Part shown: in pieces, positions 15,051 to 61,050 of the stretch | Position numbering within the stretch: the stretch's first letter is position 1 | Layout: every line of letters starts with the position of its first letter | Source of the DNA: Dictyobacter vulcani | GTDB taxonomy: Bacteria; Chloroflexota; Ktedonobacteria; Ktedonobacterales; Ktedonobacteraceae | Assembly (NCBI RefSeq): GCF_008974265.1 | Contig: NZ_BKZW01000001.1 | Span: forward strand, 3,596,001-3,660,000 | Reading direction: 5' to 3' | Length of the DNA: 64,000 bases | Notes under the pieces: generated by a model | The model's input: the letters and a program-made list of their open reading frames with translations, nothing else | The model's database searches: none | Told to the model about the DNA's origin: nothing | Made by a program: the position numbers and the translations under genes

Positions 15051-15784
15051 TCATTGTTCCTTTGCATGTTGCTTGGTCGGAACTCGTACAGAGGGCCGAT
15101 CCCCATCTGATTTAGGCTGGGCCAAGAGCTGTTCCCATGGGATGCGTGTGGATGTGCCGATATCTTGCAAATGGAACCCATCATTATGCTTTACCAGCTG
15201 CCAATGCTCCCCTGTATTGCCCTCACTGCTCTTTTTCCAGTGTGTTATCGCTGTATTGCGTGTAGAAGAACGTGTCGGGGGAAGTTCCCATTCATCCATA
15301 TGAAAGAAGTAGAGAAACGAGCCGTCAATCACGCCACCGTGACAAACAAGAACAATAGTTTTTCCCTCATGCTCGCGCACAATTCGATCTAATGCTGTTC
15401 TCACGCGCAACATGAATTGCGCCCAACTCTCACCTGCGGGAGCTATAGGACGAAAAGGCATTGTCTCATAGTTCGGTTGGCCGAATCTCTCCCAGAAGGT
15501 TTCTATTGGCAGACCCTCAGCCTCACCAGGACGCAATTCCTGAATCTCATCGTCGAGATGCAGCGGTAACCCAAGCGCAGGAGCGATAATCTGCGCGGTC
15601 TGCAAGGCTCGGGGAATGTACTGGCTATCAAGACATCAGCCGCAATTTCTTTTGTCGCTGCCAGGCGATCACGGAGACGCTGGGCCTGTAAAATTCCTAG
15701 TGGTGATAAACCGCCGTCGCCGACAAATCTCTCGACTGCGCTCATTGCTTCCCCATGGCGGATAAGATACAAGTGAGTCATCAA
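15051..15784 (-). pseudogene. Histidine phosphatase family gene with frameshift
   Basis: A phosphoglycerate-mutase-like phosphatase split into two frames. The first frame (ATG 15784) has the catalytic LIRHGEA motif with the nucleophile His; the second has ELRPGEAEGLP and the second His in VLVCHGGVIDG. The frames join near 15611-15618, where one base appears missing after codons for DVLIAST: restoring it gives PRALQTAQII, the expected family sequence. The span is 734 bases, consistent with a single deletion from a 244-residue gene. It could also be a sequencing error. The intact protein would be a cytosolic phosphatase of unknown substrate. Confidence 0.75.
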
Positions 15785-16180: not shown

Positions 16181-17464
16181 CTAATGTATCTTGCTTTGTG
16201 CTTCTAGAATGGCTTTTGCAATGTCAAATGGTTTGATGTGCCCGAAGTAATTTGCTTTTTTATGTATCCACCCGTACTTTCTTATGCCAGGATACATTTG
16301 TCTTTGTAGAGCGTTTCCTTCGCCAAGAATGGTTGTAAGTTTTGGATATCCCCAATATCCCGGTCTTGTACCTCCCCAAAGAGTAATAATCGCAGTGTTG
16401 TTCCTTGGTTGTATGCTACTCATATCTCTTTCTGGCGTTATCTTTTGCGTTGCCGCCAGGTGCATCAGTCCTGTATCACCTGTAATGAAAATGTCTGCTT
16501 GATCGATAAGAGCTGTGGTGTCGAGCAAGTGTTCTGGCTGCAAAGCTGTTTCTACGACATATTGAATTTGTCTGCCATACAAGGCTTCAAGTTCTTTATA
16601 CACTTGTTCATGAGCTTCGGGACATGTATACCCAGGTAGAATCCCAACAACTATGCGAGGATTGTGATGGAGCGCTCGCGCAATGCCAGAAACGAGCAAT
16701 TCTGCTGGTGGTCTGGTAACTGAAGAAGAGGTATCAGCCCCGACAAGTAATAACAGTCCATCCGGTTTCTCTGCCTGTTCCTTCAGTTGAGCGACTCTCC
16801 TCTCTGCGTTGGCCACCCGGTGACGTGCCAGAAAGAGTGGCACAGGCTCTGCTCGATCATTTCTCAATGAAGGCTGAACAGCAAAATAGTCATCAACCAA
16901 TACTCTGGTCCTTATATACTTCGGTATATCCTTTAACATGGGTAATGGTAGTAGCGAAAGTTTTTCTACGATGGCTTGTATTTCAAAATTGCGCAAACTG
17001 TTATGTGTGTAGTTTTGCCTTTTTCCAAAGAGTAACGCAAAGTTTTTTGGATCTTCAATAAAAATAGTTTCATATTCAGGTAGAAGTGCTGCGTATTCCA
17101 GCCGTATCTGGGTCATATGTTCAGATTGTTCGTAGAAATCTTTGGGAATCGGAAGAATGCGCATTTCTGTTCCATCAGAAGATGGAGTGGGTATGAATGA
17201 CCTCGGAAGTGCTATCTGATACATTCTTGGATGATCGGCCACAATCTGTATTTGTACCTCGGTACATAAAAGATCAATCGTGGCGTCTGGTTGGTATTTC
17301 CAAATTCTGTCAGCCGTTTCTAGTGCGAATATCATATCGCCAATAACCAACCATGGTTGAATAAGATATGGTCCTCTCTTTGTTGTTGTTCCAGTGGATA
17401 GTACGCGCCATCGCTGGCGCCTTACGAATGACGCCACACAAATGTGAGGGTTGAGCATGTTCAT
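16181..17464 (-). CDS. Glycosyltransferase family 9 protein
   Basis: A 427-residue heptosyltransferase-like GT-B enzyme that would transfer a sugar from a nucleotide donor. The N-terminal lobe has PWLVIGDMIFALETADRIWKYQPDATIDLLC; the C-terminal lobe has LLLVGADTSSSV and the GT9 motif ADIFITGDTGLMHLAATQ, which binds the donor. AAGGAAG lies immediately before ATG 17464 and is six bases from the ATG at 17458, so the second may be the true start. It is the last gene of the five-gene cyclitol operon, 77 bases after the kinase-like gene. In context it may glycosylate the cyclitol product or attach it to an envelope polymer; donor and acceptor are not visible from sequence. Confidence 0.82.
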   Translation of the reverse strand: MNMLNPHICVASFVRRQRWRVLSTGTTTKRGPYLIQPWLVIGDMIFALETADRIWKYQPDATIDLLCTEVQIQIVADHPRMYQIALPRSFIPTPSSDGTEMRILPIPKDFYEQSEHMTQIRLEYAALLPEYETIFIEDPKNFALLFGKRQNYTHNSLRNFEIQAIVEKLSLLPLPMLKDIPKYIRTRVLVDDYFAVQPSLRNDRAEPVPLFLARHRVANAERRVAQLKEQAEKPDGLLLLVGADTSSSVTRPPAELLVSGIARALHHNPRIVVGILPGYTCPEAHEQVYKELEALYGRQIQYVVETALQPEHLLDTTALIDQADIFITGDTGLMHLAATQKITPERDMSSIQPRNNTAIITLWGGTRPGYWGYPKLTTILGEGNALQRQMYPGIRKYGWIHKKANYFGHIKPFDIAKAILEAQSKIH

Positions 17465-17541: not shown

Positions 17542-18852
17542 TTACGTGAGAGAAAAGCCACGTAAATATTCATTTACTATGTGCGCAATGTCCTGTAATG
17601 TATAGTTGTGAGGGTTATAGATGGAATGGAAAAGAAACTGTTGCAACAGCAGATCATATCGATTACCATTGCTGATTTGCGGGAATTCATCAAGCGCCAC
17701 AAAACAGTCGAAGCTTTGATGCATTATCGCATGTTTCACCTCTTGTCTTTTCGCAAAGTGTTTCCTATACACTAAACGATACAAGCTGCAAAGCATCGCA
17801 AAGATGTCCCTGTGTCGATAGATCGTAGAAGTGTAAGGAATGGTCGGCGAATGCCTGAAGTCAATGAGCGCCGGGGTGTATTTATCAATGAGCCAATTTT
17901 CCTCGTGAGCATCGCCATGCGAAAGTTCGAGTGTTGAGTGCAAGGCAATGAGCTTGGACAAGCACAAAGCATACATCTGTAATGTTTCAGGAAGAGTTCT
18001 CTGTTGTTGTTCCAGTTGTTCGATGTAATGTGCGAAACTATCGCCTTCAATATACTCCATTAAAATGCCATTGAGACGAGCATCATACGATAAATACTGA
18101 GGTGTTGAAATACCTGATTCTTTGATAGCTGTCAGCATAGGCTGTAGTGCACGATAATTTTCCTCCAAGGCCACTTTTCCTAACTTTAAGGCGGTGACAG
18201 CACCACTTATTTGGTTGTGCACTTTAAGAACCACACTTTCAAATCCTTCCCCAAGAACCTCCGTAATTTGAAAGCATTCTGTGGAGAAAGACAAGGGGAT
18301 ATGATTTTCTATATGTGGCAACAGCGTTTCCAGAGACAAACTGGTGCATGCTTCCGTTTTCTCTCCAGGTCTATTTCCTTCGCAAATGAGTGCCAGCACC
18401 TTCTTACCCTCAATACAAAGGAAAGACGCGTCATTCTGGAATTGCCTTGCGATGGCCAGACTCAAGATATTTCCAGTTATCTCGTCCCTTAAGAAATGGT
18501 GATGCCATCCTCTGTATTCCATGCTGTATAAATAGGTGTAGTTTTGTTGAAAATCCCGACCGTTCTCTTCTCTACATGACGCTTTATACTCCACAATGGC
18601 ACGGGCCACATGTAGAGATAATTGATGAGATTGTGCAAAAAGGTGTGTGTGTCGTTTGAGATAGCCTTGCAAGTTCCACACGTTTATAAGTGAGCCACTC
18701 TGGTCGCTCATAGCGTTTTTATTGCCAGAATTGTTACTCCAGGCCATAGGATCAAAGAGACATAAATTACAAGGCAAGCCTATCACCTCAAATCTGCTGT
18801 CTGTTGGCTTAAAAAATGCTCCATCATATGGATGCATCCCTGCTTTTTTCAT
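17542..18852 (-). CDS. Protein-kinase-like (Kdo/RIO/APH-type) protein
   Basis: A 436-residue protein. Residues about 195-340 form a eukaryotic-like kinase core: glycine loop VLGEGFESVV (199-208), candidate ATP lysine in ALKLGK (K223), catalytic loop SHGDAHEENW (HGD 312-314, N319) and metal-binding DFR (D331). The HGDxxxxN form is typical of Kdo kinases, aminoglycoside phosphotransferases and RIO-like enzymes acting on small molecules or lipid sugars. The N-terminal 190 residues are unrecognised and cysteine-containing. The gene starts five bases after the dehydrogenase-HD stop, so it is translationally linked. It may phosphorylate the cyclitol or its glycoside, as a biosynthetic step or for self-protection; the substrate is unproven. 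Confidence 0.75.
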   Translation of the reverse strand: MKKAGMHPYDGAFFKPTDSRFEVIGLPCNLCLFDPMAWSNNSGNKNAMSDQSGSLINVWNLQGYLKRHTHLFAQSHQLSLHVARAIVEYKASCREENGRDFQQNYTYLYSMEYRGWHHHFLRDEITGNILSLAIARQFQNDASFLCIEGKKVLALICEGNRPGEKTEACTSLSLETLLPHIENHIPLSFSTECFQITEVLGEGFESVVLKVHNQISGAVTALKLGKVALEENYRALQPMLTAIKESGISTPQYLSYDARLNGILMEYIEGDSFAHYIEQLEQQQRTLPETLQMYALCLSKLIALHSTLELSHGDAHEENWLIDKYTPALIDFRHSPTIPYTSTIYRHRDIFAMLCSLYRLVYRKHFAKRQEVKHAIMHQSFDCFVALDEFPQISNGNRYDLLLQQFLFHSIYNPHNYTLQDIAHIVNEYLRGFSLT

Positions 18853-18857
18853 CTTTT

Positions 18858-20972
18858 TTACACTCTCACGTTTTCATAGAGGGCCACAACATCGTACGCA
18901 TCCTTTTGTAACACCTGGGGGAGAGCATATGTACAGCGACACTTTGCGATATACGCTTTGAACATGACAATCTCTTCTTGGCTACGTTGGGGTATTTTCG
19001 ATGGTGGAAGCTCGCTGACCCACGCATAATTTGTATAGTTATCTAATACCTTTAAGATGGGACTGAGAGGGTGTTTGGGAGTAGAAATTAATCGGGTATA
19101 CTGCTCATTTTTGATTGCCAGGTTGATGAGGGCATTCCTCCGACCTTGCTCCCTTTCATCATATCCTATCTGCCGAAGAAAAGGCACGAAAGCATTCCCA
19201 TGCAGATAATCTATCACGTGTGCCAGAGGCATTGTTTCAAACGTTCTGTCCTGGGCCAGGTCTATGGCAATAGATGCGACTGTCCTCCCAAACTGTTCTT
19301 GAAGATAGTATGCGTCAAGTGTTGTATACTCCATGACGTCATGGAGTAGTAGAGCTGCGATAACCTGGGGATCAACAATTGATAAGTGTGTTATCGCATA
19401 CTCAGCCATGTCTAAAGGATGAAAAATAAAGCGTGTGCCATCAGGCCGAAAACGTCGTTCTTTTTGCATCCCCTGATACGCATTATTGGCCACCAGAAAG
19501 GCCTTTTCAAGAAGCTTCCTCTCTTTGGCACACAATTCTTTATTCTTTATGGTTTGATAGCGCCCTTCTAAGGTTTCCACAATGGTATCCATGGAGGCTC
19601 TAATGGAGGCAAAGGTATTTTTTTTGTGTATACTTTTGGAATTGTATTGTGCTATTGCACGCATCCCTTTTCCTGTCAAGAATTCCCTGCTTTTTTGCGG
19701 AAACATTGAGGTGTACTCATCAAGGGTATAGATGCCCTTCCCCAGTAACCGGAAGTCAACAAGAATCTTGCCGATGTGAGTATGATGGATTGTGTTTCCT
19801 TTGGTTGCCAGCGCAAATACATGCGGTAATGCATTGAGGGAAACCACATGTGTTATCTGATCTAAAGGATTTATTCCGTATTTTTCAAATTCACCTCGGA
19901 CGAGATAGGACAAAACCTGGTGAAATAATGGCTGAGTAGTGCCATGCACTCCCATAAGTTTAAGTGGCTTGCCATGCACGACAATATCCTTTTCAAGATC
20001 ATCATGTCGTATGGAATAGAGATTCACGATATCTGAATCTGTTTGAAGGACTTCCTCTTTTCCGATACCTGCCACAAGCAGAATAGTTCCTTGTGGGTTG
20101 AGGTACTCGATGGCTTTTTTTACAGCACTCCCATGCGAAGCCACTAGCACATAATCTACACCGCCTATCGTTCGAAAATGCTGGAGAATCTTCGTGCTCA
20201 CATCGTCGTCATCAGGAAAATAATAATCTGGTTTTGCTACTCTCACAGCATGGGCTAATCTGATTTGATCTCTGTTCACAAGCGTAATGGACTTTGCCTG
20301 ATTGATCCTGGCCATGCAGGCTGCGAAGACAGCAATGCTTCCCGCTCCGGTAATGACGATATTTTTGCCCTGTAACAAATTCACTTCATCATCAGGCATT
20401 GAATCTGCTGTTGTGAGGTAGTGATCGTAGAACTCTCTTGGTTTGGGACCTCCTTTTCGCAGATAATCGAGTGCATGGAGTGCTACTGTCATAGGTTCCA
20501 CTAAGGCCGCAGTTGCAGGGGCAATGCATTGAGTAGAGAGGTAGGCATCGATTGGGATAATTCTGCGCTGTGGCTCACACATCACAAAATCAGCAGGCAC
20601 GCGATAGAATCTCCCCAAAACTCCGTCTAAATGCAAATCTCTTTTTTGAGCATCTGGATGGTTGCAATCGACCACCACAAACATACCTCTTCTGTAGCCT
20701 TTTTCTTTCGCTTTTTTTCCGACGTCAATAATGATCGCAAACGCTTCATGTCCAATTCTTCCGGCCGGAACTGGACGTTCCCCGGTATAGACCCGTAGAT
20801 CAGTACCACAAATACCGGCGGCACACATCATCAATGTCATCTCTTCCTCGCCACATGGCTCGGGCAACTCCAGGTCCACCCACATTTGATAGGGTTTATC
20901 CCTTTGAATGACCTCATAAGGTGCCTCATAATGGCAGTACATCTTTTCCCATGCATCTAATGGATGAACCAT
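18858..20972 (-). CDS. Zn-type dehydrogenase fused to RSH-like HD domain
   Basis: About 704 residues from the ATG at 20972, which follows CGGAGG; the frame is open to 21110 but would overlap the upstream gene. Residues 1-400 are a medium-chain dehydrogenase: catalytic zinc ligands in GICGTD (C55), GHE (H75, E76) and VEP (E159), and a NAD(P) Rossmann motif GAGSIA (209-214). The structural-zinc four-cysteine loop is absent. Residues about 485-625 match the HD domain of RelA/SpoT/Mesh1 hydrolases: RFIFHPLDMAEY (H518), ALLLHDVMEYT (H544, D545) and EQFGRTVASI. I know no standard family with this fusion. The dehydrogenase part resembles cyclitol dehydrogenases of the AcbL type. It starts 34 bases after the kinase-cyclase gene. 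Confidence 0.82.
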   Translation of the reverse strand: MVHPLDAWEKMYCHYEAPYEVIQRDKPYQMWVDLELPEPCGEEEMTLMMCAAGICGTDLRVYTGERPVPAGRIGHEAFAIIIDVGKKAKEKGYRRGMFVVVDCNHPDAQKRDLHLDGVLGRFYRVPADFVMCEPQRRIIPIDAYLSTQCIAPATAALVEPMTVALHALDYLRKGGPKPREFYDHYLTTADSMPDDEVNLLQGKNIVITGAGSIAVFAACMARINQAKSITLVNRDQIRLAHAVRVAKPDYYFPDDDDVSTKILQHFRTIGGVDYVLVASHGSAVKKAIEYLNPQGTILLVAGIGKEEVLQTDSDIVNLYSIRHDDLEKDIVVHGKPLKLMGVHGTTQPLFHQVLSYLVRGEFEKYGINPLDQITHVVSLNALPHVFALATKGNTIHHTHIGKILVDFRLLGKGIYTLDEYTSMFPQKSREFLTGKGMRAIAQYNSKSIHKKNTFASIRASMDTIVETLEGRYQTIKNKELCAKERKLLEKAFLVANNAYQGMQKERRFRPDGTRFIFHPLDMAEYAITHLSIVDPQVIAALLLHDVMEYTTLDAYYLQEQFGRTVASIAIDLAQDRTFETMPLAHVIDYLHGNAFVPFLRQIGYDEREQGRRNALINLAIKNEQYTRLISTPKHPLSPILKVLDNYTNYAWVSELPPSKIPQRSQEEIVMFKAYIAKCRCTYALPQVLQKDAYDVVALYENVRV

Positions 20973-21006: not shown

Positions 21007-24000
21007 TCACACGAGCACACAGTGATGAGCAATGTCATACTGTTGCCCTGTTGTTTGTATATCCGACTTAAATTTCTTGTTGTTGAGATCGGTAGACTTG
21101 AGATATTCAAGTGTTTTCTTCAGGACGTCAAAAGAAATATGTTCAATGAAGACCATTTTCCCTACTCGTGCAGGAATAGGCAGATGCAAATTGTTGCCTC
21201 GGGCAAGGCGAATGTCTGTGATCGATTTAAAGAGACTTTCCGCATCACATGCTTCATCGAAAATGGGCAACCCTACTGCCATCAAGACGTGAATGATTCG
21301 ATTGCGCGTTTCCTCTGTACAATATCCTTGAAGGAAAGCAAGTTGCGCACAGATGGCCATATCAATAGCGACTGCTTCACCATGGAGAATTCGATGACCG
21401 CTGTTCATTTCCAGGCATGGGCTGAACGTGTGTCCAAAGTCGACTAATCGCTTGAGTGTTTTATCCTCATGTAAATTTGTGTGGAGTTCTTTCAACATCC
21501 AATATGTAGCAAGCTCAAGTAATGCGCTTGCGTATCTTCCTGTCTGTAATCGCTCGGGCATCAGTCTGTTGTGATAGTCCTCAATAATTTTGACAATTTT
21601 GGGTTCTCGAACAATTCCCATCTTGAGGACTTCTGCTAAACCTGCCCGCATATTACGCGGAGAGACGGTTTGTAAGAATGTAACGTCATTGAGACAGACA
21701 AGAGGAGCATAAAAGTCACCTAAGAAGTTTTTTGTTCCCTGGTAATTACATCCCACTTTGACCCCTATTCCAGCATCGATTACACCCAGGAGCGTGGTGG
21801 GAATTCTGATATATGGTTTTTCTGTGAGCGCAGCGGCAAATCCAGCGAGGTCCATAGTAACTCCACCACCGATACAGATGAGCATCTCCTTGGGATCGTA
21901 ACCCATGAGGATTTGTCGCACAAGTGCTAAGACCTGGGTAAAATATTTGTTGTTTTCGCCGCCAGCATACACATAGTATCGATAATATATCTTATTTACG
22001 TTCAGATACCTCTTTATCTTTTCACCGTAGATGATATCTGCTGCTTCACTTATCACAACAAATGCCGCATTCCCTGGCACATAGGAGGACAAGGTGGTAT
22101 TGTCCAGATCGAAAAGATGGTGTGCAAACACAACTCTATAGTGGTCTTTTAGGAGTGTTGTCTTGATTGTTGGCAGTATCTGAGGCGAATAGCGCTGAAC
22201 CAGCGTTTCATCGAGCACGATAAAGCTAGGTAGATGATAGTTTGAGACAGAGGCTTTTGTTTCCTGGGCATCCATATCCACTGTGTTGCGTGATGTGGCC
22301 AGATCTTCGAGTCTATCATCGAGTGGTATGAAGATATGAGGAATTCCTCTCCGATAGATGGCAGCTGCTAATCCGCCACAGTGGAGAGTTGCCCTGCTTC
22401 CTATTGTTAGAAAATAATCTTTACGTCCTAATTTGAACGTTTTAGCCGCGAGAAGAAGCGCTTCAACATCCCTCATACTTATATCAGCAGTGCACGCTAT
22501 TTTGTAGTGAGAAAATGAGAGAGCGCTTGTTTGGAAATAACCCCGCATCTTCTCCTCTAGTCTGAATGAAAGATGACTATCTGTGACCACCATCACCTTA
22601 GGAGTACCTTCGCTTCTCCTAGTCAATATGTTCTGCAGCGTTATATTTGATGGTTCGAAAACATTGCATGTTCGAATGTAGGAGGTATATTTTTCAGTAC
22701 ATGCCTGCATCTCAAAGACGGTTGAGCCACGGGTATCTATTGAGCGTGTTACTTCTCCCTGCAACTTTTTATCAAATTGTTGTTTTGCACAGACTGAACC
22801 AATCACTCCATCTAGATCATCACCGAGGGCCCATTCGACGTTCTTTTGAAGATATGTTTGTGCCTGTTTATCCTCTGATCCTTTACTTATATGCGTTATG
22901 AGCATTTCTAGAAACACTTTTTGGATAGATAAGACAAATCCACCCATAATGACAATTTTTTTTGGGCCTCGATTGAGTATCTCCTGAAATTGTGGAGAAA
23001 ACTTCTCCATCATTTCATTGATATAATCCATCACAAATGCGTCTTTGTTATTAATCGCTATAGCTATCTCTCTGTTCGTTATCATTGTTGCCAGCAGAAA
23101 TAGCTCATTTTTATTTTTCTGTAAATCTTGGATGGATAGGGATGTTTTTTGCAAAAATGTGGTCATTTCTCTATCAGAGAGATCGGCGTTTTTATGTATT
23201 AATGAGACACTAGCCGCAGATTGTAACTGTTCTTTTTTCTCTTCCAAAGACATGCTTGAAAAGCGTTCTCTGAGTACACCGCAGAGAGACGAATGGGCAA
23301 ATTTGTGCAGATCATGGGAGGCACGCTCACGTACTCTGGTTTCTACAGCTTTTCCAGAAAAATAAGCGGTCAGGTGCCCTTTGCCTCCACAGTCACAATC
23401 AAGGGCCTCACTTGAAAGATCTACAGTTCTATGGCCGAGAGAAACAAGATCTTTTTCTCCAAAAGCGGATGCTGATCTGTTGAAGAGAGCATACCCCACT
23501 CCTGTACTAATGGTTACCAGTGCCAGGGTTTGAACCTGTGGATACAGTCGGGCATAACGAAAGGCCGCAGCAATGACATCATTAACAATAAACCATGTCA
23601 TTTCTGGCTTCTTATTTTCTAATTGTTGTTTCAGGAAGAAAGAGTCTGAAATATCAGTCTCACCCCATCTGCCCCACGTAAAATACAAATCCGCTGCTTT
23701 TGTGATGACTGCATTGTCTTTGACAAGCCCTGCAAATGATACGACGCCGGAGCTGATTACCACCGAAGGGTTGTCTTTTTGTAACTGTTTAACTGCCTGA
23801 ATGATGTATTCAACCAGGATGTGTTGTAATGTCTCGACGGAATAGGAGGGATAGCGTTTCAACGTTGGCGTGGGAAAGACAATGAGACCATGGTTTTTTG
23901 TCGCAATAGTTCTGACTTCACACGCGGTAAAATGTAGTTGTGTCTGGCACTGCTGATAACCCACCAGGTTCGAGTTACTATCAACAAGGCCAACTCGTGT

Positions 24001-24039
24001 TTGTGTGCCCCCAACATCTACACCTATGGAATAATGCAT
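21007..24039 (-). CDS. ROK-family kinase fused to sugar phosphate cyclase
   Basis: A 1010-residue fusion. Residues 1-420 are a ROK kinase: VDVGGTQTR phosphate loop (8-16), STGVGYALF, and the zinc signature CDCGGKGH (215-222). Residues about 600-985 are a sugar phosphate cyclase of the dehydroquinate-synthase fold: GGGVTMDLAGFAAAL (724-738), PTTLLGVIDAGIGVKVG (747-763) and metal ligands E803 (GLAEVLK), H870 (FGHTF) and H886 (LHGEA). The DAGIGVK form is closer to 2-epi-5-epi-valiolone synthases than to dehydroquinate synthases. Residues 480-600 look like a decayed second cyclase N-lobe (TIGSRATLHCGGLAAAIYRR). In acarbose and validamycin pathways separate EEVS and ROK C7-cyclitol kinases do these steps. 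It follows the HAD gene by about ten bases. Confidence 0.85.
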   Translation of the reverse strand: MHYSIGVDVGGTQTRVGLVDSNSNLVGYQQCQTQLHFTACEVRTIATKNHGLIVFPTPTLKRYPSYSVETLQHILVEYIIQAVKQLQKDNPSVVISSGVVSFAGLVKDNAVITKAADLYFTWGRWGETDISDSFFLKQQLENKKPEMTWFIVNDVIAAAFRYARLYPQVQTLALVTISTGVGYALFNRSASAFGEKDLVSLGHRTVDLSSEALDCDCGGKGHLTAYFSGKAVETRVRERASHDLHKFAHSSLCGVLRERFSSMSLEEKKEQLQSAASVSLIHKNADLSDREMTTFLQKTSLSIQDLQKNKNELFLLATMITNREIAIAINNKDAFVMDYINEMMEKFSPQFQEILNRGPKKIVIMGGFVLSIQKVFLEMLITHISKGSEDKQAQTYLQKNVEWALGDDLDGVIGSVCAKQQFDKKLQGEVTRSIDTRGSTVFEMQACTEKYTSYIRTCNVFEPSNITLQNILTRRSEGTPKVMVVTDSHLSFRLEEKMRGYFQTSALSFSHYKIACTADISMRDVEALLLAAKTFKLGRKDYFLTIGSRATLHCGGLAAAIYRRGIPHIFIPLDDRLEDLATSRNTVDMDAQETKASVSNYHLPSFIVLDETLVQRYSPQILPTIKTTLLKDHYRVVFAHHLFDLDNTTLSSYVPGNAAFVVISEAADIIYGEKIKRYLNVNKIYYRYYVYAGGENNKYFTQVLALVRQILMGYDPKEMLICIGGGVTMDLAGFAAALTEKPYIRIPTTLLGVIDAGIGVKVGCNYQGTKNFLGDFYAPLVCLNDVTFLQTVSPRNMRAGLAEVLKMGIVREPKIVKIIEDYHNRLMPERLQTGRYASALLELATYWMLKELHTNLHEDKTLKRLVDFGHTFSPCLEMNSGHRILHGEAVAIDMAICAQLAFLQGYCTEETRNRIIHVLMAVGLPIFDEACDAESLFKSITDIRLARGNNLHLPIPARVGKMVFIEHISFDVLKKTLEYLKSTDLNNKKFKSDIQTTGQQYDIAHHCVLV

Positions 24040-24232
24040 ACAAGACCTCCTAGAAAAAAAAGACTTTTTCTATTTCTTCCAATTTTTCTGGCCATTGCTT
24101 TATGATTCTGTCTGGTTTACAGTCCAAGAGCATCAAGTAGTCTGTTGGCCCTGTCGCGATCGCTACGGTTTTTACGCCCACCTTTTGACCGGCTGCAATA
24201 TCTCCAACAGCATCACCAATAGTGATGACTTG

Positions 24233-25560
24233 GAGGGTGTACAATACTTTGTGTAAGTGATCCTACAATAAGGAGTGAATGATGAAGAAGAAGATGGAAG
24301 ACGGAGGCAAGCATATGAGCATTCGACCTGAATTGATTGACGAATTACTCAAAGAATGTACCGATCCTACCCAATTGTTGGCCGAAGGCGGTTTCCTCAA
24401 GCAGCTGACAGGCGCCCTCGTGGAACGGTGTTTGCAAGCGGAGATGGACGTGCACCTGGGCTATCCCAAACATGGGAAACGTGATGAAACGACTGGCAAT
24501 GTCCGCAATGGCAGCAGCCGCAAGACGCTCAAGGGCTCACAGGGAGAGATTGATATCGTCGTCCCCCGCGATCGGCATGCCAGCTTCGAACCACTCTTGA
24601 TCCCCAAGCACGAAACACGACTGGAAGGCTTTGACGAGAAGATCCTGGCCTTGTATGCTCGTGGCATGACCACACGCGACATTCAAGCGCAGATCCAGGA
24701 ACTCTATGGGGTTGAGGTCTCACCCACGTTCATTTCCAATGTGACGGAAGCCGTCCTGGACGAGGTTCGTCAATGGCAGCATCGACCCTTAGAGACCCTC
24801 TATCCCATTATCTATGTGGATTGCCTGGTCGTCAAAGTGCGCGAAAATCAGCGGATCATCAATCGAGCCCTCTACCTGGCTTTGGGCGTGGATATGCACG
24901 GACAAAAAGAGTTACTGGGAATGTGGCTGGGTCACAATGAAGGAGCCAAATTCTGGTTGTCAGTCTTCACCGAACTGCAGAACCGGGGACTTAAAGACAT
25001 TTTCATCGCCTGTGTCGATGGTTTGACCGGCTTACCCGAAGCGATTGAAACACTCTATCCTCACGCACGAGTCCAGCTCTGCATGGTTCATATGGTGCGT
25101 AATTCACTCAAATATGTGTCCTACAAACATCGCAAGGAGGTCGCGGCAGACTTGAAATTGATCTACTCAGCTGCCACGGAAAGTGAAGCGCAGGTCTACC
25201 TGGATCTCTTTGCCGAGAAATGGGATCGGCAGTACGCAAGCATCAGCAAAATGTGGAGAACCAACTGGAGTCATGTCGTCCCGCTGTTTGCCTTTCCCGA
25301 GGACATTCGCAAGGTGATCTACACCACCAATGCGATCGAGTCAGTGAACATGTCGTTACGCAAAGTCACGCGCAATCACCGCATTTTTCCCTCAGATGAG
25401 GCCGTCTACAAAGTGGTCTATCTAGCTATGCACAACATTGCCAAGAAGTGGACCATGCCGATCCGTAATTGGATACCTGCATTAAATTGTTTTGCGATTG
25501 AATTTGGGGAGAGATTTCCTCACTAAATGAAATGACATACACAAAGTACTTGACAGACTC
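24233..25560 (+). mobile_element. IS256-family insertion sequence
   Basis: The 1328-bp element has imperfect terminal inverted repeats of about 29 bp, both beginning GAG and sharing TACTTTGTGTA (left end at 24233; right end reading inward from 25560). Its insertion duplicated ATGACTTG (24225-24232 and 25561-25568). It encodes one transposase and lies within the HAD phosphatase gene, in opposite orientation. The intact duplication suggests recent insertion. Confidence 0.95.
24279..25526 (+). CDS. IS256-family transposase
   Basis: A 415-residue Mutator-type DDE transposase. The catalytic acids are visible as IIYVDCLVV (D181), ACVDGLTG (D247) and TTNAIESVN (E354), with the CMVHMVRNSL motif between the last two, as usual for the family. 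AAGGAG lies before the ATG at 24279. The frame is complete and appears active. It is the only gene of the element that splits the HAD phosphatase. Confidence 0.95.
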   Translation: MMKKKMEDGGKHMSIRPELIDELLKECTDPTQLLAEGGFLKQLTGALVERCLQAEMDVHLGYPKHGKRDETTGNVRNGSSRKTLKGSQGEIDIVVPRDRHASFEPLLIPKHETRLEGFDEKILALYARGMTTRDIQAQIQELYGVEVSPTFISNVTEAVLDEVRQWQHRPLETLYPIIYVDCLVVKVRENQRIINRALYLALGVDMHGQKELLGMWLGHNEGAKFWLSVFTELQNRGLKDIFIACVDGLTGLPEAIETLYPHARVQLCMVHMVRNSLKYVSYKHRKEVAADLKLIYSAATESEAQVYLDLFAEKWDRQYASISKMWRTNWSHVVPLFAFPEDIRKVIYTTNAIESVNMSLRKVTRNHRIFPSDEAVYKVVYLAMHNIAKKWTMPIRNWIPALNCFAIEFGERFPH

Positions 25561-26286
25561 ATGACTTGTTGGCTGTTGGCATGATTCTCCTGCAGGATCT
25601 TTTGCAAGGTCTCCTCTTTCATAAGAGATGTTTCATTCCACATGACGCCAAAAACATCATCAAAGATATCTGCGATTGCCAGCATCTTGAGTATGTTTTC
25701 GGAAATATGTTGTAAATTTAAGGACACGGCATATATCTTTAGCCCTCTCTTCGCTTTTTGTTGTCTTAAAAAAGAAAGACTCCCATTGATGCCCGGAACA
25801 AGAGATACCCTTCTGCCATATTCGTAGAGCTGATTCGCAATGTAGAAATGCTCTGGATGATGAACTAACTCCCAATATCTGTTCTCTATCCATTCCACAC
25901 ACATCTGTCTAACATTTTCTCTTTCCTTCTCATATTTAAATTGTAGAAAGCCATCTTGTATCAAAAGATCGAAAAACAGGTCTAACTGTTGCGGAGCTGT
26001 TAAATGAAGGCTGGTTGTATATGCGTTCCAGCCCACTAAAAATTGCTCGAATGGAAAATGTATAGATGCATTTAAAGCAAACGTATTTTTAAATCTGTAC
26101 AAAAGTTCGCTAAAAAGATATCCGTAGCGTTGATAGTTTCCATACCATACGGTGTTATCCAAATCTAACACAACTATAGTAGGCGTATTTTGCGTACATA
26201 TGCTTTTCATCATTCAATTCAATCTCATAATAGTGATTTTCTGCTAAAAGCAAACAATCATTTCAACAAGAGCAGTGTTATTTCTA

Positions 26287-27503: not shown

Positions 27504-29843
27504 TTATACGTCGGGTTTCAAACAACGTGAGACTGCGGCATCTACTGAATCATAGTAGGCGAAGTCCCTATTACCGTTTGGCTTGAATGACCAAACGGTT
27601 AACCCAGTCGAATCCCTCTGTGGTCCTCCTTCAGTAACGAGTCCCGGTGAGACAAATCTCACATACACTCGTGGTGATGTTGGGCTGGCTGGTCGGATCT
27701 GAACGAGCTTCCTCATAGCGTCAGAATGCAAATGGGGGCCTTTTGTGTCGATTGCGTATACATCATTATCTGACCAAATAAGGAAATCTGGATAGAAGTT
27801 TTCTGTTTTTCCAGGCTCAACGAGCGGAATACCATATCCCGTCCGAGGAGGGTTTCTGCACCATACCAAGTTCGTCCGATCTAGCGCTTGAGCAAAAATT
27901 ATCTCGTCAGCGTTGAGATTTTCATAGCCATCATGAAGAGCATGTTGGAATAGGGCAACGTCTTCAGATTGCTGAAGGAGTGGACCAACGACGTAAGGAT
28001 TGGGTTTTCGGAGCTTAAGATAGACGTTCTCTACAAAAGCTTGGGCTACCTCTTTGGCGACGTTTGTGACATGTACTGAAGCATTGCTACCTAAACCGAT
28101 CCAGGCATCGAACTTTGTCGGTGTGCCAGTACCACTCGATGTCATTGCAATACCAAGTGCTCCAGGATACACGCGGCGCACTTCACGAGTGAACAGCCAT
28201 CGAGCTAGCACCATTGCAGAGTGTCCTACTTCCTCCCAAATGAATGATTCGTTGCCTGGTTGCCCCACAATTTTCTGAACGCGGGTAGTACGGCCGATAC
28301 CCAATATGTTTGCACCACTATCATCTCGGTAGTCTGTCATCGTCGTGATACATCGATTAATTGGCTCTTCTGCGCTGTCTGTAATAATGGCACTAACTGG
28401 TACAGTTTTGACTGACTTAGGTTTGTATTCTTCTCTATTCTTTTTGCCAGGTGGACTTTTAATGAGTTTGATGCTCATGTTCTCATTCTGGATTTTCTTC
28501 TGGACCAATGAGACTACCTCATCGAACACACCCATTGACTCTACTCGGACATGAATCTGTGCCATATTGAGACGATCTGCCGGGTAGTGACGCCTTTCCG
28601 GTTGGCGTAAGAGGCGACCAACAACTTGCTCTGCTTGTACCTTTGAGCCCATACTCTTATCAATGTACGCGAAATAGATAAGAGGATCGTCCCAACCCTC
28701 TTGAAGACTCTGATTAAAGATGATATGTCGAAAATTCCCTTTTATGAAATCATCATAGTCGTTATCTCCACCATTGAATAGTATGAATTCATTTGGCAGT
28801 GGGAAATTCTTGTCCACTCGTAGGTCGGAATAAACAGCTATTTCGGCTGGGTCAACGCCAAGTGTCTCGGTGAGATGCTTCCAAATCCGGATAGGTGGAG
28901 CTTGGCGGTGAGCAAACGGCTGCTTGTGGTTATCACGTTCATCAGATCCTTCTACCACATTAGTTTTACAAATATAGACAGCTTTTGGCCGACCCTGAAG
29001 GCCAAAAGCTTTACCGTCTTGCTCAGTCTGTTTCAGTTCGTGAAGCATTAACTCGATGACCTGTTCCATGGGTGCTTGATGACCTACCAACTCAATAGTT
29101 GTCTTGATTAGACCAGAGTCTGCCACTGCCTTAGCATCAACTGTGGTCATAAGATCATCATCAGTTTTATTCCCTATCTTATAGAGAATATCTATGATTT
29201 CCTCGTTAAATCGTTTTGGAAGCCGTTGCGTAGCTGTTGCAAGGAGAAATGCATCAGGCTCTAACTCCATAAGCAAGTCCGTTTGTTGGTCGCTCAGGTT
29301 CTGTGCTTCGTCGTACACCACTATAAGTGGCCGACGATTGCCATCTGGATCAGGCCGCAACTGAAGTGCATTCCATGTTGACTGGGAAGTGTCATCAATC
29401 CCACTTTGGAAGACTTTGCGGCTCCCGTGTTCCTTGTCTTTCTGATTAAAAGTACCAACTGTGGCGAAAAATAGGAAGGGGTTACGCTCATGGGCTACCT
29501 CGGTTGAGTCGTATTCAGCAAGGGATCGAACGCCAAAGTCACTAATGAGGCTGTGTAGCCCTCCTCCTGTATCTAGATTGGCATACGTTTGTTCGACGAC
29601 AACTGTCGCTTTCGATAACCAAAGAATGATAGGTTTAATGGAGATTCCATGAGATATAGATGCCACGGTATCGGCAAGAATAATAGTTTTGCCTGAGGCA
29701 GTAATAGATGAAAGTAATTGAATAAAAGGTATACGTTTAGTTGTTCGTCCTTTTGCAAATTCTAGTGGCTCATTATAGTACGCGATAACACGATCAGCAA
29801 TCTGATCCGCGGCATGTGCTTGGAATTCGTATAAATCGATCAT
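27504..29843 (-). CDS. res: Type III restriction enzyme, Res subunit
   Basis: A 779-residue translocase-endonuclease that cuts unmodified DNA together with Mod. Helicase motifs: Walker A TASGKT (48-53), DEAQ box (178-181), motif III-like LLATATQRLP, and motif VI QVVGRLLRQPERR. The C-terminal nuclease is of PD-(D/E)xK type: PDFLIW then AIDTKG (D686, D699, K701). Its start overlaps the mod stop by four bases (29840-29843), so the pair is translationally coupled. Length is somewhat shorter than the 900-1000 residues of EcoP1I-type Res. It appears intact. Confidence 0.9.
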   Translation of the reverse strand: MIDLYEFQAHAADQIADRVIAYYNEPLEFAKGRTTKRIPFIQLLSSITASGKTIILADTVASISHGISIKPIILWLSKATVVVEQTYANLDTGGGLHSLISDFGVRSLAEYDSTEVAHERNPFLFFATVGTFNQKDKEHGSRKVFQSGIDDTSQSTWNALQLRPDPDGNRRPLIVVYDEAQNLSDQQTDLLMELEPDAFLLATATQRLPKRFNEEIIDILYKIGNKTDDDLMTTVDAKAVADSGLIKTTIELVGHQAPMEQVIELMLHELKQTEQDGKAFGLQGRPKAVYICKTNVVEGSDERDNHKQPFAHRQAPPIRIWKHLTETLGVDPAEIAVYSDLRVDKNFPLPNEFILFNGGDNDYDDFIKGNFRHIIFNQSLQEGWDDPLIYFAYIDKSMGSKVQAEQVVGRLLRQPERRHYPADRLNMAQIHVRVESMGVFDEVVSLVQKKIQNENMSIKLIKSPPGKKNREEYKPKSVKTVPVSAIITDSAEEPINRCITTMTDYRDDSGANILGIGRTTRVQKIVGQPGNESFIWEEVGHSAMVLARWLFTREVRRVYPGALGIAMTSSGTGTPTKFDAWIGLGSNASVHVTNVAKEVAQAFVENVYLKLRKPNPYVVGPLLQQSEDVALFQHALHDGYENLNADEIIFAQALDRTNLVWCRNPPRTGYGIPLVEPGKTENFYPDFLIWSDNDVYAIDTKGPHLHSDAMRKLVQIRPASPTSPRVYVRFVSPGLVTEGGPQRDSTGLTVWSFKPNGNRDFAYYDSVDAAVSRCLKPDV

Positions 29844-31846
29844 TCGTCGGCTTCCTCCTCGATGAAAGGTTCGCTACGCATATCGAGACCGAAATCGGCT
29901 AGAATGCGATCTGGAATTTGATAGAAGCGAATTCCATCGGTCTGATATCGATACAATCTTGCGTAAACATGATACGGAGCAGATTTCAGCCCTGCAAGTT
30001 CTGCTTCTTCTGCACAGGCCTCATAAACCAATTCTGTGAAATCTGTGTTGGAGTCTGGACCATCCCAAACAAGGAAGAAACCCTCATGCTCAGTATTTTG
30101 TGCGATGAGATACCTATAAGGTGTCTTGCCATTATCAACCCGTATGAGGTGATCTCCTCGACGGCTTCGGGTATCGAAGTGAGAAGCAATAACAGTATCA
30201 AGCATCTCGTCGCGTTCCATTCGTAGGAGGGCACCAGCATCAACCTTCTTGCCAAGTTTGAGAAACGAAAATCCTCCACCCAACTTTATACCTTTTCCAT
30301 TTACCCAATCGCCACTGGCCGCTTTTTTGAGACGCTCTGCAGTAAGCGTCTGTGCGTAAGAGTCACCTCTCTGAGGACTTCCCTGTTCAATGAGGACGAA
30401 TCTACGGTTGCTACCTGTAAGATAGTTCAACCCGAGAACAGCATGGCCCGTTGTACCAGATCCTCCAAAAGGATCAAGAACAAAACCATCGGGAGGGCAC
30501 CATAATTGGATGATCTTTTCGAAAAGTCTCAATGGTTTCACAGTAGCGAAACCATGGTTGGGACCAACGATCGCGTCCAGCTCCTTGATTCCTGTTTGTG
30601 AGTGACCCGATTCCTGATGTTCCCATGAGACAGCACCCAGTTCCTCTGGTAGCTCGTAATCATCATTGGCCCAGTAAGTCATGGGTACAACACCCTTCTT
30701 AACTCGTTCGAGTGAACGTTTAGTTGTCGGGCGGCCCTGACCGTTAGGACCAAAGTAAATCTTAGGCCATGCGCCAGCAGCAAGGCGAGCCTCTGCCTTA
30801 CATCGAGCTTCGTCTAATGGTTCAGCCAAAACAACTGCTTTAGCTGGCTTTAGTTGTGTGACATCAATGCTAAGCAACTCTGCCCGGACTTTATCATCTC
30901 CTAACGCACGAAGTTCAAATTCCACATTCCACTGGCGGAGAGTCTCAAGAAGCGTTTTTTGTGCCATTCTCCAGCAACCCATTGGCGGCGGATAGTGCAG
31001 TTCTCCCGTGAAAGGAGACTGGATGGCATACACCATTCCTTGATTTTGTCGACCTTTTCCTGCTGAAGCATCACCTGGACGCCAAGGCCCGAGAGGATCG
31101 CCGTCGGGGTTGGAATACTTAGCGTTCATCGACGCTGTTCGATTTAGAAGCCCTGTTCGAGCTTTGAAAGTGTCTTTAGCGTACACTAGTACATACTCGG
31201 TCGCTGTAGAGAGATGCTTGTTGTCGTTACGAGGTGCATATGACTTTTGCCAGTTGATAACACCTAGACGATTATCCTCATCAAAGAGTTCATCGAGCAT
31301 CTGGCCAAGTCGGAACAACTCGCGGTGGTCAATACAGATGGCAAGAATTCCTCCTGGCTTTAGCATGGATTTCATCATTTGCAGACGTGGCCACATAAAA
31401 CGCATCCATTTGGTATGCCGTGCGCCATCATCAAGAGAGACAAATTCACCTAGGCCAGGATCATTTGGATCTTCATCCCATCGGTCGTTGTAACGAAAAT
31501 CATTGCCAGTGTTATAAGGAGGATCGGTAAGTATAAGATCAACATGGCCGTGTTCTTTGTAAAGAGTAACCATCGACTGAAGATTGTCACCCTCAACTAA
31601 GATGTTTCTTGCCTGTTCCGTTGGTGATCCATACCCAAGTGAAGGAACATTACGTGTAATGCGAGGTCGTACCAGGCGAGCAAGGCGGCGTGCACTAGAC
31701 TTGCCCGCAAAGTTAATTCGTATGCCACCTCCGCTATTTACTTCGAGAATCTCGAGTAACTGGTCACGAGAAAGATCTTCCAATCGCAGTTGAGCGAACT
31801 TGGATGGAAGAAAAAGATCAGAAATCGCTGGGACTGTGTCTTTCAT
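29840..31846 (-). CDS. mod: Type III DNA-methyltransferase (adenine-N6), Mod subunit
   Basis: A 668-residue methyltransferase that both modifies the host site and gives specificity to the restriction complex. The order of motifs is beta-class: catalytic LTDPPYNTGNDF first (DPPY 108-111), SAM-binding LDPFGGSGTTGHA later (458-). The segment between them contains the probable target-recognition region (about 180-400). The C-terminus (500-668) is probably the Res-binding part. The ATG overlaps the stop of a small upstream ORF (ATGA at 31843-31846). The recognition sequence cannot be read from the protein. Confidence 0.93.
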   Translation of the reverse strand: MKDTVPAISDLFLPSKFAQLRLEDLSRDQLLEILEVNSGGGIRINFAGKSSARRLARLVRPRITRNVPSLGYGSPTEQARNILVEGDNLQSMVTLYKEHGHVDLILTDPPYNTGNDFRYNDRWDEDPNDPGLGEFVSLDDGARHTKWMRFMWPRLQMMKSMLKPGGILAICIDHRELFRLGQMLDELFDEDNRLGVINWQKSYAPRNDNKHLSTATEYVLVYAKDTFKARTGLLNRTASMNAKYSNPDGDPLGPWRPGDASAGKGRQNQGMVYAIQSPFTGELHYPPPMGCWRMAQKTLLETLRQWNVEFELRALGDDKVRAELLSIDVTQLKPAKAVVLAEPLDEARCKAEARLAAGAWPKIYFGPNGQGRPTTKRSLERVKKGVVPMTYWANDDYELPEELGAVSWEHQESGHSQTGIKELDAIVGPNHGFATVKPLRLFEKIIQLWCPPDGFVLDPFGGSGTTGHAVLGLNYLTGSNRRFVLIEQGSPQRGDSYAQTLTAERLKKAASGDWVNGKGIKLGGGFSFLKLGKKVDAGALLRMERDEMLDTVIASHFDTRSRRGDHLIRVDNGKTPYRYLIAQNTEHEGFFLVWDGPDSNTDFTELVYEACAEEAELAGLKSAPYHVYARLYRYQTDGIRFYQIPDRILADFGLDMRSEPFIEEEADE

Positions 31847-50888: not shown

Positions 50889-51006
50889 CCTTCACAACGA
50901 TGCCCATTGAACTTCATCGCAATGCCCATTTCTTCAGGGCTATTTAGACTATTCTTTTTATAAAGCTGTTGTGTGTTTGCAACATGTGAGAAAGGATAGT
51001 GCTAGT

Positions 51007-52374
51007 GTGATTTATTTTCACCCTCCCCAGAAAACATCGTATGGTGTCACCTTGAAAGATGGATCTGCTGATACGTCCAGGCGACATACGTTCTTATTTG
51101 GTGTTTTCAAGCGAGCATTACGATTATGTGGATGGTGGATGGGCTCTCTTTTATGTCTGTGTGGCTTGCTTTTGGGTATATGGATCCTGCCACATATCGG
51201 TGAACTGCATGATTCAGTTGCCATCCCTGGACGTGGCCGTGCAGGTGTGGTAGAGAGCAATACTCCCCTGCTTAATCAGAAAATCTGTGGTCATCCAACT
51301 GTCGTATTTCAGCAACTTGGGTTTTCGAGCAAGGATGTCCCAACCACGGCGCTTCTTGCGCAACTGCCACTCCCACAGACGCATGCTGTTCAACAGGCTG
51401 GGGATATGAGTTATGATCCCCAAACGGATACTTTCTGTACGATTGGTTGGCGAGGTATTTATACCCGGTATATACAGCAATCTTCATTGCCTCCCGGCTC
51501 AGTTGAGACCGGAAATGGGACGGTGCCAGCTTCAACCAGTACGAGTTGGGTGCAGGATATTCTCAATGGATTATTCTCCTCGTTTGCCCATTCGTTTGCA
51601 GATTTTCTTCAAGGACTTCTGAGCTGGGCAAAGACTTTTGGCTTTATGTTTATTACGCCGGATGGGCTGACATATACTCAGCCTGTGGTCATCCATCTTC
51701 ATGCCTGGATGGTTGGGGTGATGGATAGCCTCCTTGTGCTCGCGCTGATCCTTGGTGGCTATAAAGTGATGCTTGGTCAGCATGATGTCTTACGTGAGTT
51801 TGCTCCAGGTTTCCTCTTTGCTGCGATTAGCGGAACATTTAGCTTATTTTTCATCACGCAGGCTATTCAACTGCAAAATGCGCTGTGTGTCAGTTTACTT
51901 GGGGTTCTTGCCAGTGCGGGGGTCGGTGACCTTTCCTTACCATTAGGTGTTATCAACTGGGCGACTGCGCCTGCGTATGAAGTACTGACCTATCTGATTG
52001 ATCTCTTGATGTGTGTGTGTTTGAGCATTCAGATGCTGGTCCGTATCGGTTTACTTGATTTCCTGATCGTGTTGGCGCCTCTCGGTCTATTGTGTTTTCG
52101 GCGTCTATGGATACATGCGTTTCTCTCTACCTTGTTGTTGCAATTCTTTCAGACGGTGTGTATTGGGTTGGGAAGTACACTCATTGCCAGCTTTGGACAT
52201 GCTAGCTACAGCGTAATTTCGATGCTGGTTGGTATTGCGACCTTATATATTGCGTTCAAATTGCCGGGGATGATGTTGTCCAATGTCGTGCGTCACAGTG
52301 TTGGTGAAGTCCATCGTGATGCTGGACGAGCCATACAGACCGTTGCAGAGTTTGCAGTCTTCAAGGCGGCTTAG
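51007..52374 (+). CDS. TrbL/VirB6-like conjugal transfer membrane protein
   Basis: About 455 residues from the GTG at 51007, preceded by AAAGGA; the frame is open to 50971 upstream. One N-terminal transmembrane segment (about 35-55) is followed by an external, Cys- and Pro-containing region, then five or six membrane helices between about 215 and 430 (VMDSLLVLALILGGYKVML, FAAISGTFSLFFI, LLDFLIVLAPLGLLCF). This topology is that of the VirB6/TrbL channel component of type IV secretion. It is the first gene of the transfer block and is 14 bases ahead of the CHAP hydrolase gene. Confidence 0.75.
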   Translation: MIYFHPPQKTSYGVTLKDGSADTSRRHTFLFGVFKRALRLCGWWMGSLLCLCGLLLGIWILPHIGELHDSVAIPGRGRAGVVESNTPLLNQKICGHPTVVFQQLGFSSKDVPTTALLAQLPLPQTHAVQQAGDMSYDPQTDTFCTIGWRGIYTRYIQQSSLPPGSVETGNGTVPASTSTSWVQDILNGLFSSFAHSFADFLQGLLSWAKTFGFMFITPDGLTYTQPVVIHLHAWMVGVMDSLLVLALILGGYKVMLGQHDVLREFAPGFLFAAISGTFSLFFITQAIQLQNALCVSLLGVLASAGVGDLSLPLGVINWATAPAYEVLTYLIDLLMCVCLSIQMLVRIGLLDFLIVLAPLGLLCFRRLWIHAFLSTLLLQFFQTVCIGLGSTLIASFGHASYSVISMLVGIATLYIAFKLPGMMLSNVVRHSVGEVHRDAGRAIQTVAEFAVFKAA

Positions 52375-52388
52375 AAAAGGAAACGTAC

Positions 52389-53117
52389 ATGTTCCGGCTG
52401 GTAGGTCTGGTACTGACCAGTCTCCTTGGCGTCATGAGCCTGCTTGTCCTTGTTGTGGTTATTCTTCTCGCACCATTTGGGGCTGTGTTAACGAATCCTG
52501 TTGTAGGGTTTGGTGGCGGGAACCTGCCGTATGTATCCAGGTCTGGGGTTAGCGGAACGGAGATTGCGGCAGGCGCACAATTGCTTGCCGATCATGTCTA
52601 TGGTCCCTGGGCCAATGAGTATGATACCGTCAATGACCCCTTCATGCGCTCGGTCGCGCAATTTTGGATTGACTCGTGTGGCTCCAATGGGGTGATCTGT
52701 TCGGTCGCTCAGAGTGGAAATCTCCAATGTGTCGAGTTTGTGACGGGAGCTCTGTTCTTGAGTGGTGTGCGTTTACCCTATGTTGATGATGCGATCAAAT
52801 TCTGGCCGGCTTACGCCTCCCAATCTGGTTGGAAGCGTGTGTCTGTCGCGCAAAGTTATCCGCAGCCAGGAGATATGGTGATCTGGCAAGGTGGGGAGTT
52901 CGGTCATATCGCCATTGTTATCAATGTGAGTCTGCCAAGCAGACAACATGATGGGCTGGTGACCGTGGCACAAGGCAATGGGATGGGCAATCGCTGGGAT
53001 GCTTCCCATCAAAGCAGTCCAGGTAACTGGTATAGCATGCCGTTGCATGCGAATGGAACGCTCGATACCTGGAATGGATATCGCGTATTAGGCTACATTC
53101 GACAAGACTCTAAATAA
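52389..53117 (+). CDS. Membrane-anchored CHAP peptidoglycan hydrolase
   Basis: A 242-residue protein with one N-terminal membrane helix (about 5-30, VGLVLTSLLGVMSLLVLVVV) and an external CHAP domain. The catalytic Cys is in NLQCVEFVTGAL and the His in FGHIAIVI, with a later Asn/Asp region after VTVAQGNGMG. Such amidases/endopeptidases open the cell wall locally so that the type IV channel can assemble, like VirB1/Orf169-type proteins. AAAAGGAAA lies before the ATG. It sits between the TrbL-like and pilin-like genes. Confidence 0.85.
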   Translation: MFRLVGLVLTSLLGVMSLLVLVVVILLAPFGAVLTNPVVGFGGGNLPYVSRSGVSGTEIAAGAQLLADHVYGPWANEYDTVNDPFMRSVAQFWIDSCGSNGVICSVAQSGNLQCVEFVTGALFLSGVRLPYVDDAIKFWPAYASQSGWKRVSVAQSYPQPGDMVIWQGGEFGHIAIVINVSLPSRQHDGLVTVAQGNGMGNRWDASHQSSPGNWYSMPLHANGTLDTWNGYRVLGYIRQDSK

Positions 53118-53158
53118 ACCCCGAATTTTTTGTGGCTCTTTTTTGAAAGGATAAGATT

Positions 53159-53452
53159 ATGATTTCTCTCGTTCCCTTTGCGTCTCTCTCAATGTTTGTC
53201 TTTTTGTCTGTCTTCCCTTTGGCCGATATTGGAACGGCAATTAGTGGTGTTGCTAATCTATTGGCTGGCTATCTGGGTGATGTGCTCATATTTGTGTTCG
53301 TGATCGCAGGCTATTTGTATATGACTTCGATTGGTGATGCCCAAAATGGGGTGCATGCCAAACGAGCCATTGGGGCAGCTGTTGCCGGTGGAATCCTGGT
53401 CGCTATCGCCGTCAAATTTGGTCCTACGTTGGCGGGTTTGTTTAAAAACTAA
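53159..53452 (+). CDS. VirB2/TrbC-like small membrane protein
   Basis: A 97-residue protein with an N-terminal hydrophobic segment (FASLSMFVFLSVFPLA), possibly a signal peptide, and two further membrane helices (VLIFVFVIAGYLYMTSIG and AVAGGILVAIAVKFGPTLAGL) joined by a short basic loop (NGVHAKRA). This is the standard layout of VirB2/TrbC pilin or pilin-like subunits. GAAAGGA precedes the ATG. The position before PrgI-like and VirB4 genes fits the VirB2-VirB3-VirB4 order. Confidence 0.75.
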   Translation: MISLVPFASLSMFVFLSVFPLADIGTAISGVANLLAGYLGDVLIFVFVIAGYLYMTSIGDAQNGVHAKRAIGAAVAGGILVAIAVKFGPTLAGLFKN

Positions 53453-53467
53453 TGAAAGGATGTGTTG

Positions 53468-60925: not shown

Positions 60926-61050
60926 GTGCACTCTCCAAAAGACTAGTATATAAATAACCTTTCCGAATACGAACAATTACAGGTAATAATTGCTAGATGA
61001 TATTTTAAGGAGAAATCGTATTTGTTCACGAGGCCCCTGTCAAACTGTTC

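Follow-up and report, generated by a model that had tools for sequence, protein, structure and literature searches.

A zinc-type dehydrogenase fused to an altered RelA/SpoT-family HD domain in a putative C7-cyclitol operon

What does a RelA/SpoT-type HD domain do at the end of a dehydrogenase whose gene lies beside that of a sedoheptulose-7-phosphate cyclase? The question is raised by a gene of a Ktedonobacteria-like soil bacterium, found in the 64,000-nucleotide stretch of DNA that was analysed here as a whole (the window). A first-pass annotation had described the product as a dehydrogenase joined to an RSH/Mesh1-family HD domain, had placed it in a cyclitol locus and had called the architecture unusual. 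The joining is borne out by a continuous open reading frame (ORF) and by Pfam, NCBIfam and PDB matches, the cyclitol setting by a kinase-cyclase neighbour and the grouping of the dehydrogenase, and the rarity by the absence of a second fusion from the genomes sampled. The dehydrogenase-HD fusion is genuine: two known families are joined in a domain architecture that is new and, as far as sampled, unique.

One gene, two domains

The fusion gene lies at 18858..20972 on the minus strand, stop codon included, and encodes 704 amino acids; all positions given below for parts of it are on the same strand. The ORF runs for 704 codons without interruption from an ATG at 20972, with a GGAGG ribosome site 5' of it, to the stop codon at 18858-18860. 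Scored by codon usage, this frame was the best in 11 of 11 blocks of 64 codons, including those on both flanks of the domain junction, and the linker block (385-448) scored lowest. ADH_N, ADH_zinc_N and HD_4 are all detected by Pfam within the one protein. The linker itself (residues 413-475, 19548..19736) has mostly low confidence in the full-length model, in which the HD half is poor because the alignment had no HD rows there. An in-frame ATG within the gene (M437, 19662-19664), behind AGGAAAAGGG, is a candidate internal start that could give a separate HD-only product.

The N-terminal part is a zinc-type medium-chain dehydrogenase domain (residues ~25-412, 19737..20900), as seen from Pfam, alignment, a phylogenetic tree and the predicted fold. 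It contains the GroES-like and Rossmann domains and the catalytic zinc ligands of this family: ADH_N matches residues 42-130 above the Pfam cut-off (1.9e-7) and ADH_zinc_N residues 215-314 slightly under it (1.2e-6), while C55, D58, H75, E76 and the Rossmann glycines (GxG at 209-211) are invariant, and E159/P160 near-invariant, in an alignment with 27 dehydrogenases of C7-cyclase loci. The structural-zinc Cys cluster is absent from the domain. Its predicted fold matches zinc alcohol dehydrogenases (2d8a, Foldseek E 1e-18), and the residues VNRD that follow the second Rossmann strand may point to a preference for NADP.

The C-terminal part (residues ~476-704, 18861..19547) is an HD domain of the RSH/Mesh1 type. 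Pfam places HD_4 at residues 497-573 (6.3e-6 in the full protein), and the HD part scanned alone scores 28.6 bits against a cut-off of 27.2. NCBIfam gives weak RelA/SpoT matches far below the full-length cut-offs, as expected for one domain, a PDB sequence search with the HD part returns MESH1 and RelA/SpoT, and residues 496-580 align with human MESH1 at an E-value of 2e-7 (phmmer). A separate model of residues 440-704, built from 31 sequences, reaches pLDDT values above 90 in its core, with low confidence at an insertion. Foldseek and VIA-align place it with SpoT, Rel, MESH1 and small alarmone hydrolases (SAHs), at Z scores of 15-20 for most and of 17-20 in VIA for SpoT/Rel/MESH1, whereas other HD folds (phosphodiesterases, HD hydrolases) reach only ~10; the top structural match is SpoT (Z 19.9, 2.8 A over 182 residues). 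All 31 sequences were RSH/SAH relatives, and such alignment rows may favour an RSH fold; the sequence matches, however, do not depend on the model. A MIOX-like di-iron oxygenase, considered given the cyclitol setting, appears unlikely: the fold clearly matches RSH, and MIOX is not among the matches listed.

No second fusion was found in more than 1,300 genomes of five phyla, in plasmids, in phages or in one whole-collection peptide scan. For the phylum of the host, 400 genomes and 60 relatives were searched as overlapping sets; for four other phyla the sets held 346, 239, 194 and 148 genomes (927 in total) and were searched without a positive control. Plasmids and phages were searched by tblastn, and genome contigs and viral contigs with short peptides, which detect close relatives only. 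These searches returned unfused dehydrogenases, RSHs or nothing; every genome set sampled a larger group, and the fusion can be called a single copy only within the limits of this sampling. A literature search likewise found, among the papers available, neither a known dehydrogenase-RSH fusion nor an HD domain in a valienol pathway.

Operon and C7-cyclitol setting

Upstream of the fusion gene, across a gap of 34 bases, lies a gene for a protein of 1010 amino acids (21007..24039, minus strand). Pfam/NCBIfam, a PDB match and part-by-part BLAST divide it into a ROK kinase (residues ~1-420), an extra cyclase N-terminal half (~455-630) and a full sedoheptulose-7-phosphate cyclase (~632-990). The presence of the extra half is unusual. 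Two further genes, assigned by Pfam, follow on the same strand: a RIO/APH/protein-kinase-fold kinase (17542..18852), which starts 5 bases after the fusion gene, and a GT9-like glycosyltransferase of the heptosyltransferase family (16181..17464). From the gene order and the short gaps, the kinase-cyclase, fusion, RIO/APH-like kinase and GT9-like genes probably form one operon.

The closest PDB sequence to the cyclase is 4p53 ('Cyclase', E 3.2e-58), which we take to be ValA, a 2-epi-5-epi-valiolone synthase. Of 80 genome loci that carry the nearest cyclases, a dehydrogenase is present in 62 and a ROK gene in 50, with 41 loci having both. On an Agrobacterium vitis plasmid, a Streptomyces clavuligerus plasmid and a Candidatus Saccharibacteria contig, cyclase, ROK and dehydrogenase occur together as separate genes. 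The early steps of acarbose synthesis use the cyclase AcbC, the ROK kinase AcbM and the dehydrogenase AcbL; AcbM and AcbL act on cyclitol phosphates, and a phosphate is later removed by a separate phosphatase, AcbJ, which is needed (PMC9200736). Because the gene set matches both the cyclase loci and AcbC/AcbM/AcbL, we interpret the operon as encoding a C7-cyclitol pathway.

The dehydrogenase domain fits this setting. In a maximum-likelihood tree it adjoins a clade of C7-cyclase-locus dehydrogenases that includes the one from the Actinoplanes utahensis locus (support 93/87), within a larger group of cyclase-locus dehydrogenases (96/95) and apart from the dehydrogenases of Ktedonobacteria-like genomes, although its long branch (1.88) makes the exact place unsure. 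With the AcbL-type C7-cyclitol dehydrogenases of the acarbose pathway and C7-cyclase loci it shares the zinc-type fold, the Cys/His-Glu/Glu catalytic pattern and the neighbouring ROK kinase and sedoheptulose-7-phosphate cyclase. It differs from them in sequence, with an identity of at most 25%, and in its C-terminal HD domain, which none of the others has.

A link to (p)ppGpp was not found in the locus, which holds no synthetase domain. The same genome encodes two long RSHs and one small HD_4 protein, all with HD_4 scores far better than that of the fusion, so alarmone hydrolysis need not depend on the fusion HD domain. Only distant homology suggests a starvation link.

The locus has also been disturbed. 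An insertion element of the IS256/Mutator family (24233-25560), with the 8-base target repeat ATGACTTG on either side (24225 and 25561), has interrupted a HAD-family gene that lies directly upstream of the kinase-cyclase gene and in the same direction, leaving fragments at ~24050-24232 and 25561-26213. Six further near-identical copies of the element are present in the genome. With the HAD gene split, the cyclitol pathway may currently be impaired, and the element and the split gene upstream may have silenced the operon. The interrupted gene may encode a phosphatase of the pathway, in which case there is less need for the HD domain as the only one.

Two observations from the comparison loci stand apart from the fusion. 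A Candidatus Saccharibacteria contig (L048, 2384-14041) carries an apparent C7-cyclitol cluster with a DHQS-like enzyme, a ThDP enzyme, APH, ROK, cyclase, two dehydrogenases and an epimerase; it adjoins VirB4/VirB6-like genes and is unexpected in a small-genome lineage. An Omnitrophota ORF of 1401 codons (L073, 3-4205) has a family 2 glycosyltransferase region fused with a sedoheptulose-7-phosphate cyclase.

A kept metal site in an altered pocket

Residues of the HD domain were compared in an alignment with 95 RSH/SAH HD domains. The first metal ligand, H518 of the HP motif (19419..19421), and the HD dyad H544-D545 (19338..19343) are kept and occur in 95 of 95 relatives, and the last ligand, D644, and N648 (19029..19043) are kept as well, being Asp in 98% and Asn in 99% of ungapped relatives. 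Hence all four metal ligands are intact, and the ligand loss that the first-pass annotation had named as its refutation does not occur. E548, the counterpart of MESH1 E65 (Glu in 95 of 95), is also kept, as is K641, in a column more than 90% conserved.

The annotation had listed the motifs HPLDMA, LLLHDVMEYT and EQFGRTVASI, all of which are present, and had concluded that the hydrolase pattern was full except for ED changed to EY. That conclusion was overstated: of the 25 columns that are at least 90% identical, 15 are kept in the fusion and 10 are changed. Y549 replaces the Asp of HDxxED (MESH1 D66; Asp in 93 of 95) at 19326..19331, where E548 precedes it and the MESH1 alignment is ungapped. 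H499, the His of the AHxG motif in 95 of 95 relatives, is Tyr, and R504, Arg in 98% of relatives, is Lys in the multiple alignment. The base-contact Arg (Rel R44, MESH1 R24) is ambiguous, being K504 in the multiple alignment, while R507 stands opposite MESH1 R24 in the ungapped pairwise alignment. An insertion of ~35 residues (576-613, 19134..19247), mostly of low confidence in the model, separates the QFG motif from the last metal ligand.

The domain has the RSH-type fold and the H/HD/D ligands of active alarmone hydrolases but neither HDxxED nor AHxG. Like MESH1/HDDC3 and bacterial SAHs, it combines the HD fold (Z ~15-17) with four metal ligands, the catalytic Glu and the Asn after the last ligand; it differs from them in being joined to a dehydrogenase, in HDxxEY in place of HDxxED, in AYxG in place of AHxG, in the changed or shifted base-contact Arg and in the insertion. 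Compared with the long RSHs (SpoT, Rel), it comes without synthetase, TGS and ACT domains and its catalytic motif is altered. Judged from the alignment, the metal site looks kept by selection and the alarmone-specific pocket altered, given that the domain retains only 16 of 77 mid-conserved columns yet still has the ligands, E548 and N648.

What the HD domain may do

Mutants of the family bear directly on these changes. MESH1 D66K is catalytically inactive and served to trap NADPH, with which it was crystallised (PMC9894426); D549Y is at the same position. MESH1 E65A is inactive too (PMC13221220), and the counterpart of E65 is kept. Rel R44Q is hydrolase-defective (PMC9765508). As to substrates, MESH1 reportedly strips ribose phosphates from NADPH and CoA (PMC9894426, PMC13221220). 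The first-pass statement that Mesh1-type domains act on NADPH has support but is disputed: MESH1 and XccSAH reportedly hydrolyse both alarmones and NADPH (PMC9894426, PMC9765508), but one group saw no NADPH hydrolysis by Mesh1 (PMC7644958). A precedent for recruitment is PenF of the pentostatin/vidarabine cluster, an HD phosphatase drawn into an antibiotic cluster from a family that acts on monophosphates (PMC11592144). We liken it to the fusion on the literature alone, as an HD phosphohydrolase in a natural-product cluster; PenF, like YfbR, is an HD-superfamily 5'-nucleotidase and differs in HD family, in standing alone and in having a nucleotide substrate.

We tentatively favour the reading that a C7-cyclitol dehydrogenase has here been joined to a metal-dependent phosphohydrolase domain that was repurposed and acts on a changed substrate. 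Both domains of the enzyme would serve a C7-cyclitol pathway of the valienol type, in which the AcbL-like N-terminal part would use zinc and NAD(P) for the oxidoreduction of a cyclitol phosphate from the adjacent kinase-cyclase fusion. The C-terminal part, with one divalent-metal site (H518, H544, D545, D644) and a catalytic Glu but with residues typical of alarmone hydrolysis lost, would most likely be a metal-dependent phosphohydrolase; it would probably act on some phosphorylated small molecule from that pathway, and the fusion would keep it close to the dehydrogenase. The RSH-type fold, the kept metal site, the grouping of the dehydrogenase, the make-up of the locus, the 4p53 match, the need for AcbJ in acarbose synthesis and the PenF precedent all count in its favour. 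Against it count the loss of the D66 equivalent, the changes at H499 and R504, the long dehydrogenase branch and an HD model built from RSH/SAH sequences only; moreover, the operon once held a HAD-family gene, so a second phosphatase is not obviously needed, and no relative with the same fusion, which could show conservation of the HD site, was found in the genomes sampled. A more specific form, in which the RelA/SpoT-fold domain was recruited from alarmone metabolism to act as a cyclitol-phosphate phosphohydrolase or redox-cofactor phosphatase in cis with a cyclitol dehydrogenase, would be a new RSH-fold activity in natural-product biosynthesis, and we consider it rather unlikely.

Nearly as likely as a phosphohydrolase with a changed substrate is that the HD domain is catalytically dead and serves as a structural, oligomerising or ligand-sensing module (for example for ppGpp or NADP(H)), as with the inactive HD domain that RelA retains (PMC3153485). 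D549Y, at the very position whose Lys mutant in MESH1 is inactive, the changes at H499 and R504 and the long insertion all agree with this, but decay would not favour the survival of four ligands, E548 and N648 when only about one-fifth of the mid-conserved positions are kept. An active domain with a changed substrate is preferred because of the MESH1 and Rel mutant data, the removal of ribose phosphates by MESH1 and the recruitment of PenF. Less likely than either, and improbable in our judgement, is that the HD domain hydrolyses (p)ppGpp or NADPH in the ordinary way and thereby couples cyclitol synthesis to starvation or tunes the cofactor pool. Its clear membership of the RSH/Mesh1 fold and the reported dual activity of MESH1 and XccSAH speak for such a role, but the domain departs from alarmone hydrolases at three near-invariant positions, its base-contact Arg is either replaced by Lys or shifted, the locus offers no synthetase partner, normal RSHs are encoded elsewhere in the genome, and the NADPH activity is itself disputed. 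From its residues, the HD domain is probably not an ordinary starvation-signal hydrolase. That the two domains are functionally unconnected, having been joined by accident through loss of an intervening stop codon or by misassembly, is very improbable: the fusion is the single known example and its locus is disturbed by an insertion element, but the frame across the junction is continuous and well scored and the ribosome site is good. Furthermore, beside the 80 nearest cyclases there was no HD gene save one ordinary RSH ~9 kb from the cyclase of a Nocardiopsis locus, so there is no obvious adjacent gene that was simply joined.

If the HD domain is active, an alarmone-hydrolase fold would have been reused for small-molecule chemistry in biosynthesis, which would suggest that some RSH/SAH annotations made from motifs only are wrong. 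An inert domain would be a natural counterpart to the MESH1 D66 mutants. The doubly fused C7-cyclitol locus (kinase-cyclase and dehydrogenase-HD) is unusual and a possible source of acarbose- or valienamine-like compounds.

Elsewhere in the window, a histidine-phosphatase gene is split over two frames (15051-15784), which suggests a frameshift or sequencing error. A methylase/helicase-like pair at 27504-31846 resembles a type III restriction-modification system, and an Mrr-type endonuclease is encoded at 59828-60976. Between them, at 50971-59693, lie genes that by eye resemble conjugation or type IV secretion genes (VirB6/VirB4/TraG-like), which points to a mobile element in part of the window.
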